In this document: positions 1 to 3,633 of the stretch, piece by piece
Position numbering within the stretch: the first letter of the stretch is position 1
Layout of the letters: each line of letters begins with the position of its first letter
Source of the DNA: Mycobacterium sp.
Lineage (GTDB): Bacteria > Actinomycetota > Actinomycetes > Mycobacteriales > Mycobacteriaceae
Direction: 5' to 3'
Length of the DNA: 64,000 bases
NCBI GenBank assembly: GCA_020438845.1
Contig: JAGQTV010000017.1
Location: 1-64,000, forward strand
Notes under the pieces: model-generated
What the model saw: only the letters and a program-made list of their open reading frames with translations
Told to the model about the DNA's origin: nothing
The model's database searches: none
Position numbers and translations under genes: made by a program

Positions 1-459
1 GCGCCAGCCGCGGGATTCGACGAGTGCGCGGGTCCAGTCCAAAGTGAAACGAATCTTGTCCACCTCAAGGCGTTGGCGCGGCTTCACATCGACAACCGTG
101 GGAACGGTGCCGGTGAACAATAGGAAGTCGGGCACGTGTCTGCGCATCCGGCGATCCACTCTGGCGCGCAACAGAAACGGCTGTGCAATCACGTGCCGCA
201 CCGTGGTGTCGTAGTCGGCCAGCATCAGCCGCGCCAACTCCAGGCGCGATTCATAGATCACGTGGTCACGATTAGTCGCCGACCAGTACGTACCGGAATA
301 GTGCCGCTGACCATCACGCGACCGGAAGCTCCGCCACGGCACCGCGCGGCTCAGGAAATCGGTTGTTGCACAAACCCATGGGGTCGCACCCTCGGACAGA
401 GTTTCCCTGTCCCGGATCTCCGCGACGGCGTGGCTAGGGTCCACCAAGAGGCCGGCCAA
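1..459 (-). CDS. TnsA-like transposase endonuclease subunit (5' part only)
   Basis: Reading the minus strand gives a protein with a TnsA-type PD-(D/E)xK nuclease core: YESRLELARL (catalytic Glu), then RRHVPDFLL (catalytic Asp), then VVDVKP (Asp and Lys). In Tn7 the TnsA subunit cuts the 5' ends of the transposon while TnsB, a DDE transposase, cuts the 3' ends, which permits cut-and-paste movement. The N-terminal part includes WRSFRSRDGQRHYSGTYW, the kind of lead-in seen in actinobacterial TnsA-like proteins. The reading frame is open upstream only to a stop at 514-516. I chose TTG at 457-459 because a GGGGTGA stretch lies about 9 bases upstream; GTG at 442-444 is the alternative. The C-terminus runs off the window. 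Confidence 0.8.
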   Translation of the reverse strand, partial: MAGLLVDPSHAVAEIRDRETLSEGATPWVCATTDFLSRAVPWRSFRSRDGQRHYSGTYWSATNRDHVIYESRLELARLMLADYDTTVRHVIAQPFLLRARVDRRMRRHVPDFLLFTGTVPTVVDVKPRQRLEVDKIRFTLDWTRALVESRGWR

Positions 460-500
460 ATCACCACGGTCACCCCAATCCGTGCAAATGCAACCGGTCG

Positions 501-517
501 TCCCGATTTCGTTTCAT
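501..517 (-). repeat. Transposon end repeat, inverted copy
   Basis: On the minus strand this reads ATGAAACGAAATCGGGA, matching the two direct copies at 531-548 and 551-568 apart from a 1-base gap and a few substitutions. It lies just upstream of the tnsA-like gene, so it may be both a transposase-binding site and part of that gene's promoter. Confidence 0.65.
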
Positions 518-530
518 AAATGAAGCGCGT

Positions 531-568
531 ATGAAACCAAAACTGGGATTATGAAGTCAAAATCGGGA
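531..568 (+). repeat. Two direct transposon end repeats
   Basis: ATGAAACCAAAACTGGGA at 531-548 and ATGAAGTCAAAATCGGGA at 551-568 match at 14 of 18 positions and are spaced exactly 20 bp apart. Closely spaced repeats at an element tip next to tnsA are the layout of TnsB-binding sites in Tn7-like right ends. That they bind a transposase is inference. Confidence 0.65.
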
Positions 569-602
569 ACCTACAACCTCCTCCTCCCACCTTATTAATT
601 GG

Positions 603-2414
603 CTACTGCCGGGCCATGTTCGTGAACCGCGACAAATGCAGTTGGTGCGCAACGGTAATCGTCTTGGTCGGACCATTGCGGTGCTTGGCCAGAATCAGGT
701 CCGCCTCTCCCCCGCGCGGATCGTCGCGCTCAAACGCATCCGGCCGGTGTAACAGGATCACCATGTCGGCGTCCTGCTCGATCGCACCGGACTCACGCAG
801 GTCGGCCAGCATAGGCTTCTTGTCGGTGCGCTGCTCCGGACCACGGTTCAGCTGACTCATTGCCACCACCGGAACCTCAAGCTCCTTGGCCAAAAGCTTG
901 AGATGGCGCGAGAATTCGGACACTTCCTGCTGACGGGACTCCACTTTCTTGCCCGAGGTCATCAGCTGCAGGTAATCGATGACCACCAATCGCAGGTCGT
1001 ACTTTTGCTTCAGCCGGCGCGCCTTGGCGCGGATCTCCATCATGGTCAGGTTCGGAGAGTCGTCGATGTAGAGCGGCGCCTCACTGATCTCACTCATCCG
1101 CCGGGCCAACCGCGTCCAGTCGTCATCGCTCATCCGACCCGAACGCATATCGGCAAGTTTGATTTTCGCCTCCGCAGAAAGGAGGCGCATGACGATCTCG
1201 GACTTGCTCATCTCCAGCGAGAACACCACGCTCGACAGACGGTTCTTGATGGAGCACGAGCGCAAAAAGTCCAGGCCCAACGTTGAATTGTGCGTGGGGA
1301 TCATGGCATGGCCAGCGAGATAGAGGTGATCCTCGTTGTCGACCTCGACACATCGAACCGGCACGCTCGGGATCGAACGCACGTCGGTGATGCCGAATTC
1401 CCGGGACAGCTCCGCTGCAACGCCGACGCCGACGAGCCGGCGCGCACCGACCGCCGACACTATGTCGGCACCGATCTTCAACTCTGCCGTAGTCACGATT
1501 CCACGAAACGTCGGCCACTGATGATCCGCATCGGCAACGATGACCGAACCGTCCGAGAATTCGACCTCGTAACAGGGCCTGCCCAGCATGACGTCAGTAG
1601 CCGCCACCACACGGGTAGGAAAACCGTCGGCACCGATCAGGAGGTCGCCGACGGCAACCTCACCCATCGTCGTCCATCCGGTGGGTGTCGGCAGCGGGGT
1701 ATCCAGTTTCAGGGCCTTCCCCATACCCGGCCTGGCCGCCACCACGATCATCTGACCCGGATGCAAACCATTGGTCACCTCATCGAGTTCGGTGAACCCA
1801 GTCGGGACTCCCCGGGAGATTCCGCCTTGCGATGCAATGGCATCGATCTCATCCATGGTCGGCTGCAGCAGCGCCTCCAACGGAACGAAATCCTCGGCGG
1901 TCCTGCGCTCGGTGACGTCGTAAATTTCCGCCTGAGCACGGTCGACGATCTCGTTGACGTCGGCTCCCTCGGCACCGGCGTAGCCGTACTGCACCACCCG
2001 GGTACCGGCCTCGACCAACCGGCGCAGCAGGGCCTTCTCGGCCACGATGCCCGCGTAATAGCCGGCGTTAGCCGCGGTAGGCACCGTCGAGATCAGCGTG
2101 TGCAGGTACGGCGCACCGCCGATACGCCGAAGCAGACTTCTACGGTCGAGTTCAGCCGCCACGGTGACGGCGTCAGCCGGTTCACCGCGACCATAGAGGT
2201 CCAGGATCGCGTCATAGACGTTCTGATGCGCCGGCCGATAGAAGTCCCCGGGGCGTAGGCGCTCGAGCACGTCGGCAATGGCGTCCTTGCTCAGCAGCAT
2301 TCCGCCGAGTACGGACTGTTCCGCAGCGAGATCCTGCGGAGGCTGACGACCGAAGTCCTCCGCAGGAGGCGGCGAGTCCGCTCCGGGCTGTCCGAGATCG
2401 TTGACGACGGCCAT
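603..2414 (-). CDS. dnaB: Replicative DNA helicase DnaB with an in-frame intein
   Basis: DnaB is the hexameric helicase that unwinds the replication fork. The 603-residue precursor has the DnaB N-terminal domain (about residues 20-130), then the RecA-like ATPase domain. Walker A reads ARPGMGK|ST and is split by a 143-residue intein; Walker B is in LRLVVIDYLQLM. Removing the intein leaves about 460 residues, the usual mycobacterial DnaB length. The start at 2412-2414 (MAVVNDL) matches the M. tuberculosis start and has GGAGG just upstream; a longer open frame to 2534 lacks family support. It is separated from rplI by about 490 bp, so it is probably transcribed on its own. The Tn7-like end lies immediately downstream. 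Confidence 0.97.
   Translation of the reverse strand: MAVVNDLGQPGADSPPPAEDFGRQPPQDLAAEQSVLGGMLLSKDAIADVLERLRPGDFYRPAHQNVYDAILDLYGRGEPADAVTVAAELDRRSLLRRIGGAPYLHTLISTVPTAANAGYYAGIVAEKALLRRLVEAGTRVVQYGYAGAEGADVNEIVDRAQAEIYDVTERRTAEDFVPLEALLQPTMDEIDAIASQGGISRGVPTGFTELDEVTNGLHPGQMIVVAARPGMGKALKLDTPLPTPTGWTTMGEVAVGDLLIGADGFPTRVVAATDVMLGRPCYEVEFSDGSVIVADADHQWPTFRGIVTTAELKIGADIVSAVGARRLVGVGVAAELSREFGITDVRSIPSVPVRCVEVDNEDHLYLAGHAMIPTHNSTLGLDFLRSCSIKNRLSSVVFSLEMSKSEIVMRLLSAEAKIKLADMRSGRMSDDDWTRLARRMSEISEAPLYIDDSPNLTMMEIRAKARRLKQKYDLRLVVIDYLQLMTSGKKVESRQQEVSEFSRHLKLLAKELEVPVVAMSQLNRGPEQRTDKKPMLADLRESGAIEQDADMVILLHRPDAFERDDPRGGEADLILAKHRNGPTKTITVAHQLHLSRFTNMARQ
1287..1715 (-). other. Class-3 mini-intein in the DnaB P-loop
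   Basis: The 143-residue insert lies between Lys and Ser of the Walker A motif. It begins with Ala instead of Cys or Ser and ends with THN followed by Ser. It carries the three residues that define class-3 inteins: Trp67 in block B (DADHQW), Cys122 in block F (VRCVEV) and Thr141 in block G (IPTHN). In this class the block F Cys starts splicing in place of residue 1. There is no room for a homing endonuclease, so it is a mini-intein. Inteins of this class at this P-loop site are known in mycobacterial and mycobacteriophage DnaB proteins. Confidence 0.93.
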
Positions 2415-2606
2415 CGGCTGACCTCCAACTCCTCTCGACACACTCCCGACATCTGTCGAACGTGGGTTCGATCGCACAGCTGTCACGGTAGGCCGAGGCA
2501 CCGACAAAGTGCATTGGCCTGACCGCTGGCGCATAGCGCCGAATGGAACGGTAGAGGTTGCTGAAGCTGTCGCAAACTGGCACTGTTCATCAACTTGTTA
2601 GTGGTC

Positions 2607-3375: not shown

Positions 3376-3633
3376 CTATCGCGTCGCCGACGTGAACGGC
3401 AGCAAGGCGACCTCACGTGCGTTCTTGACGGCGATCGCGATGTCGCGCTGGTGTTGCACGCAGTTCCCGGTGACTCGACGAGCGCGAATCTTGCCCCGCT
3501 CACTGATATAGGTGCGCAGCAGTGCTGTGTCCTTGTAATCGATGTTCTGGCCCTTCTTAGAGCAGAACACGCACTTGCGAGTCTTGATCGGCTTGTCCGG
3601 TGCGGGACGCCGCTTGGTGGATTTGGCCTTCAT
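3376..3633 (-). CDS. rpsR: 30S ribosomal protein S18
   Basis: S18 forms a heterodimer with S6 on the small-subunit platform. The 85-residue protein contains [24 protein letters not shown] and the conserved [11 protein letters not shown], and keeps the cysteines of a zinc-binding (C+) form. I chose ATG at 3631-3633 (MKAKSTKRR); a TTG two codons upstream is possible but the GAAAGAG ribosome site fits the ATG better. It lies between ssb and rplI as in other mycobacteria. Confidence 0.96.

Follow-up and report, generated by a model that had tools for sequence, protein, structure and literature searches.

The 3′ end of dnaB, the gene for the replicative helicase, very probably served as attachment site for a Tn7-like transposon whose decayed tnsA-end is preserved in the stretch of DNA analysed here (64,000 nucleotides of Mycobacterium sp., contig JAGQTV010000017.1 of assembly GCA_020438845.1; hereafter, the window). 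The role of dnaB as an attachment gene is strongly supported by comparison with relatives, not by the window copy. A first, sequence-only reading of the window had proposed such an element from the end repeats and a tnsA-like gene beside dnaB, together with a targeting protein for which the 3′ coding end of dnaB would be the recognition site.

Transposon ends and gene sets at dnaB in relatives

We explored the 3′ side of dnaB in 100 same-genus genomes including that of the window, 95 of them ranked by likeness to the window dnaB and five (G026, G122, G091, G011 and G177) added owing to a TnsA nearby (G, C and L numbers denote genomes, contigs and loci). With strict patterns, an element end lay at most 40 bp past the dnaB stop in 50 of the 100 genomes (46 of the 95 likeness-ranked and four of the five added ones), where the motif rate within the same flanks predicts about 0.11. 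These 50 ends comprised 38 of TGTAGG type and 12 of TGTCGAGAT type. A looser pattern applied over 60 bp gave ends at 52/100 dnaB sites, and several of the remaining sites bear degraded ends when inspected by eye.

The position of these ends followed the ATGGC motif in the conserved tail codons of dnaB. The end-to-ATGGC distance had a median of 23 bp and a median deviation of 1 (73 rows, with some genomes counted in both sets), and a longer tail after ATGGC was accompanied by a shorter end-to-stop distance (Spearman -0.54, p 8e-7; 73 rows). When the 50 same-genus genomes were counted once each, 36 had their end within 2 bp of 23, and permutation of the tail lengths produced a spread that small in 0/10,000 trials. 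Since spacing is held to ATGGC, the insertion position is, on this evidence, dictated by the coding sequence of dnaB rather than by its stop codon.

Complete gene sets were found next to dnaB. Matches to the actinobacterial TnsA family NF033179 occurred in 78/198 same-genus genomes (66 above cut-off), and the DnaB C-terminus in 192/198 (E<=1e-80). In a linkage analysis that used the 105 above-cut-off TnsA matches and the listed dnaB positions, plus the plasmid dnaB of G020, 17 distinct TnsA genes began at most 6 kb downstream of a same-strand dnaB. The order dnaB, then tnsA-tnsB-tnsC-tniQ, was present in G037, G078, G181, G182, G167, G172 and G072, with a dnaB-tnsA gap of about 1.3 kb in G078 and G181, two consecutive TniQ matches in G172, and a tniQ interrupted by the contig end in G072. 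Among Pfam models, Mu-transpos_C was above cut-off in G037 and just below it in G182, TniB was above cut-off in both, and TniQ (PF06527) was above cut-off in the relatives' elements, with a fold match to TnsD. In this first family the TniQ encoded after tnsC is long (~760-900 amino acids) and has predicted DNA-binding helix-turn-helix domains, and the element ends have the form TGT...ACA with arrays of TnsB-type repeats.

The comparison of empty sites and 5-bp duplications that had been suggested at the outset also gave positive results. Target duplications of 5 bp were found in four relatives (G122, GCGGC; G026, GGAGG; G101, CCAGT; G037, GATTC). A systematic search recovered them in 3/50 stretches (G122, G026 and G101) versus 0.24 with shuffled duplications; matching duplications were not seen in the other stretches of the 50, many of which were too short to include the far end. 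One empty-site gene order was identified: in G004, G090 and G093, counterparts (49-54% identity, tblastx) of the gene past the G101 element begin 7-36 bp beyond the dnaB stop. The right flanks of G122, G026 and G037 showed no gene that adjoins dnaB elsewhere. The relatives' gene sets, the fixed spacing, the duplications and this gene order support the main proposal of the sequence-only reading, both a Tn7-like element with its tnsA-proximal end against the 3′ end of dnaB and the targeting protein.

A decayed copy in the window genome

In the window, the transposon end TGTAGGTTCCC, with three TnsB-site-like repeats, has its first base at 575, 27 bp beyond the dnaB stop, and TGTAGGTTCCCGATTTTGACTTCATAATCCCAGTTTTGGTTTCAT, running from 575, holds two direct 20-bp repeats and one inverted copy (Table 1). 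It matches the dnaB element of M. attenuatum (L222) at 89% over 574 bp, the alignment starting from window 575 = L222:5818, while the DNA between element end and dnaB stop is unlike in the two. Because homology begins there and the outside DNA differs, the boundary was set to the base at 575, which confirms the distance of about 27 bp given by the sequence-only reading; its placing of such an end by dnaB was likewise borne out as beyond chance by the frequency among relatives. The window end is atypical in two respects, lying 27 bp from the stop versus 7-14 bp in 60/73 end rows, and 42 bp from ATGGC versus the median of 23 bp.

Table 1 Features at the dnaB side of the window and the strand on which they lie.
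Feature	Position	Strand	Remark
dnaB, replicative helicase	603..2534	minus	TAG stop 603-605; presumed target at its 3′ coding end
ATGGC of the conserved dnaB (N/D)MA tail	613..617	minus	spacing anchor; element end 42 bp away here
dnaB stop-to-element gap, 27 bp	576..602		contains AAGGT, found again beyond the right end on contig C93
tnsA-proximal transposon end	501..575	minus	terminal TGTAGG at 575
TnsB-site-like repeats	549-568, 529-548; 501-522	minus; plus
tnsA-like gene, 5′ part	1..459	minus	TTG start; rest on contig C93:2-292, frameshifted, truncated

The open reading frame (ORF) from 459 to 1 matches NCBIfam NF033179 TnsA_like_Actin with 149.1 bits (cut-off 110), and the Pfam TnsA N-terminal model with 18.2 bits, below its cut-off of 26.5. 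An E...D...DVK core is visible by eye (YESRLE / VPDF / VDVKP), whose residues we take to be the TnsA catalytic ones. Contig C93 (8,513 bp) overlaps the first 127 bp of the window and holds the remainder of tnsA; the two protein parts share 84% (153 amino acids) and 69% (88 amino acids) identity with the protein of M. attenuatum. At the DNA level, the match to this species reaches base 298 of C93 and the reading frame diverges earlier; because the frame departs from the M. attenuatum protein before the DNA match ends, tnsA is read as frameshifted and cut short. The sequence-only reading had named a tnsA-like gene with a complete core; that the gene is broken was not visible to it.

Searches for tnsB, tnsC and TniQ gave no match anywhere in the window genome (assembly 99.78% complete), while identical searches recovered all three in the positive controls G182, G172 and G072. 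With tnsA broken and these genes not found in the assembly, the window copy is, judged from its gene content, a relic no longer able to move by itself. The expectation that the rest of the element would lie to the left was thus not upheld, and the lack of tnsB, tnsC and tniQ on that side is a result that this first reading had named as refuting its proposal; in view of the comparative evidence, we attribute it to decay. Leftward extension led to C93, which continues tnsA; the right end there (C93:3479) has repeats of a type unlike those of the dnaB-side end.

Downstream of tnsA, C93 carries serine-hydrolase-like and enolase-like ORFs (named by eye from their translations), then the right end at 3479 (TGGCGAA-type repeats) and, 4 bp later at 3484, a second left end (TGCAC-type). 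AAGGT is present on both sides, yet separated by 13 bp from the dnaB-side end. We did not adopt the reading of a simple element with its two ends on C93, the left end being TTCAT-type and the right end TGGCGAA-type; the second left end and the displaced AAGGT also speak against it.

Several other observations concern the same genome and M. attenuatum. The cargo behind the second left end (C93:3484-8513, L003), one small and one methylase-like ORF, resembles NYN-domain and N-6 DNA methylase genes of the G172 and M. alvei plasmid elements (27-37% at the amino acid level). On contig C77 (L233), a right end meets a left end in tandem at two junctions of the same orientation, with a third left end inside; this contig is possibly the continuation of the array beyond dnaB. 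A second TnsA-like gene (C96:62000-76000, L234) has an in-frame TAG, and no ends were recognised near it by the patterns used. A PDB sequence search with TnsA returned nothing useful. In M. attenuatum, tnsA, tnsB and tnsC frames are present and the TniQ match is limited to residues 1-205; just ahead of the present element (L222:5795-5817), the final dnaB codons pass into GGTGAGAACCTACA, which has the look of an earlier right end joined to dnaB. By eye, the window dnaB appears to have a small intein at the ATP-binding loop (~1296-1712) and the M. attenuatum dnaB ORF (1021 amino acids) two, so that dnaB would host inteins as well as Tn7-like neighbours.

Distribution, a second family and plasmid copies

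A TniQ-alignment scan of named genomes, some of them the same as those above, yielded 79 loci kept from 95 confirmed stretches; eleven other loci were excluded as too short to judge. dnaB lay upstream on the same strand at 27/79 loci (18 mycobacterial, 3 Microbacterium, 2 Streptomyces, 1 Pseudonocardia and 1 Actinospica, together with two metagenome-assembled genomes, one of Streptomycetaceae and one of Actinomycetota). Sets of tnsA-tnsB-tnsC-tniQ were found behind dnaB not only in mycobacteria but also in Streptomyces, Pseudonocardia, Actinospica and Microbacterium. The end was at most 18 bp from the dnaB stop in 26 of the 27 loci and overlaps the stop in L166. At the latter locus (L236/L166, the second dnaB of G030), the end is TGTAG and the transposon end provides the stop codon. 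Related machinery also occurs at other sites, for example 7 bp past the GAPDH gene in Streptomyces olindensis, and dnaB targeting did not form a single clade in a TniQ tree built by a quick method without a mixture model, in which long branches meet and the label 'other' is possibly wrong at contig ends. Two loci (L149 and L152) on contigs labelled uncultured Acidobacteria have TniQ nearly identical to actinobacterial ones; these contigs are possibly mis-binned.

A second family with a dnaB site is shown by sequence comparison to have been recently mobile. One and the same TGTCGAGAT-type element occurs at dnaB in M. ahvazicum (L194) and elsewhere in M. triplex (L193); the two copies are identical over at least 11,858 bp inward from the terminal base, and only 32.5% of positions agree in the 40 bp outside. 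In this type tniQ is nearest dnaB, followed by tnsA, tnsB and tnsC, and some elements have a second TniQ match on the opposite strand. Its TnsC is 24-26% identical to that of G037; two distant families thus have one site in common. The M. triplex element lies beside an AAA-type helicase gene, and a different Tn7-like element (L174) is near a similar AAA_30/AAA_12 gene, possibly a second shared site.

We also reviewed 18 plasmid dnaB records, chosen from 30 listed of 988 found, some of them because a TniQ had already been seen there; 17 were counted as plasmid dnaB copies. A clear end 6-11 bp past the stop was present in 3/17 (M. alvei, M. aubagnense and M. chimaera ZUERICH-2), degraded ends were seen by eye at two (M. 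adipatum and M. chimaera 852), and the other 12 had no end. In M. alvei and M. aubagnense, the plasmid dnaB is followed by genes annotated as TnsA and Mu-type transposase; the M. alvei plasmid tniQ is annotated as two pieces and may be broken. In the record left out, Tsukamurella 'plasmid 14' (L239, NZ_LR134456.1), the genes stand in the order typical of the chromosome, rpsF-ssb-rpsR-dnaB, and the Tn7-like element that follows dnaB is interrupted by an IS21 element.

Target selection, alternatives and known systems

By analogy with Tn7, whose transposition steps these elements would follow, TnsA and TnsB of the complete relatives would cut and join the element, and TnsC would connect them to the target. 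A TnsD-type TniQ, with a TniQ domain and a helix-turn-helix C-terminus, most likely reads the dnaB 3′ end by binding its conserved coding DNA, so that the element would insert in one orientation and usually outside the gene, ~23 bp away from ATGGC in the NMA codons. A broader proposal, for which we consider the balance even, is that dnaB is the landing site of at least two distant Tn7-like lineages and that one dnaB-reading TnsD-type protein serves both homing to the chromosome and spread by plasmids. A single selector could reach both, since large plasmids of actinobacteria have a dnaB of their own; if true, the elements would live by two pathways as Tn7 does, but with one target selector for both.

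Among the alternatives, the least improbable, which we nevertheless regard as unlikely, is that another selector (a second TniQ, an unidentified partner protein or an RNA guide) reads dnaB and the long TniQ is merely an adaptor. Two TniQ genes are indeed present in G182 and G172 (Pfam) and in G052 and G041 (tblastn), and partner selectors such as TnsF are described for published Tn7 relatives in the consulted part of PMC10293859, whereas the length of the first-family TniQ and its predicted helix-turn-helix domains favour direct reading. We give even less credence to a passive hotspot, in which the region past dnaB tolerates insertions and varied islands gather without any reading of dnaB: the ends found in tandem or nested on C93 and the two different end families at the same site would fit it, but the ends share one orientation relative to dnaB, mostly keep to within 1-2 bp a fixed spacing from the coding ATGGC, and recur just past the stop of three of the 17 plasmid dnaB copies, in other surroundings. 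Finally, the tnsA-like gene could be a host gene, fixed or domesticated, that is linked to dnaB and belongs to no transposon. The tnsA of the window genome does stand without tnsB, tnsC and TniQ, but this reading was rejected as scarcely credible, being contradicted by the patchy presence of NF033179 (78/198), the 48/100 dnaB sites without an end even by the looser pattern, the frameshift of the window copy, and the relatives with complete gene sets and target duplications.

A dnaB-reading TniQ thus remains our preferred interpretation, and the window element is of a known kind (Tn7-like, TnsABC plus TniQ) with an attachment gene that we did not find described. No paper linking Tn7-like elements to a dnaB site was found in a search that did not extend to supplementary tables and preprints, so that an unlisted report is possible. 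The main texts of PMC10293859 and PMC11406308 hold no such link; PMC10991518, PMC3332091 and PMC8987985 were the only papers found to contain both 'Tn7-like' and 'dnaB', the passages retrieved from the first and third being unrelated, and the accessible part of PMC12231136 gave no target site. An Actinobacteria-dominated Tn7-like clade is reported to have no experimentally characterised member (Benler et al. 2021, PMC8649781, as far as its available text goes), and the same text mentions no dnaB site. The dnaB elements probably belong to this clade, to which they would give a concrete, testable target site. The site was encountered at roughly half of the dnaB genes analysed within the genus, and in Streptomyces and Microbacterium as well. 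These elements suggest a natural system of site-specific integration for these bacteria and raise the question whether an attachment gene carried by plasmids makes a separate plasmid-targeting factor unnecessary.

In the consulted part of Faure et al. 2023 (PMC10293859), TniQ/TnsD proteins with variable C-terminal extensions, dual TniQ loci and homing to conserved genes are described, features that the dnaB elements resemble; the sites named there are glmS, tRNA genes and comM, and the main text contains no instance of 'dnaB'. Compared with Tn7, which attaches at glmS through the TnsD pathway, the elements described here use dnaB, and differ further in their actinobacterial TnsA family (NF033179) and in a TniQ C-terminus with a LysR-like fold.
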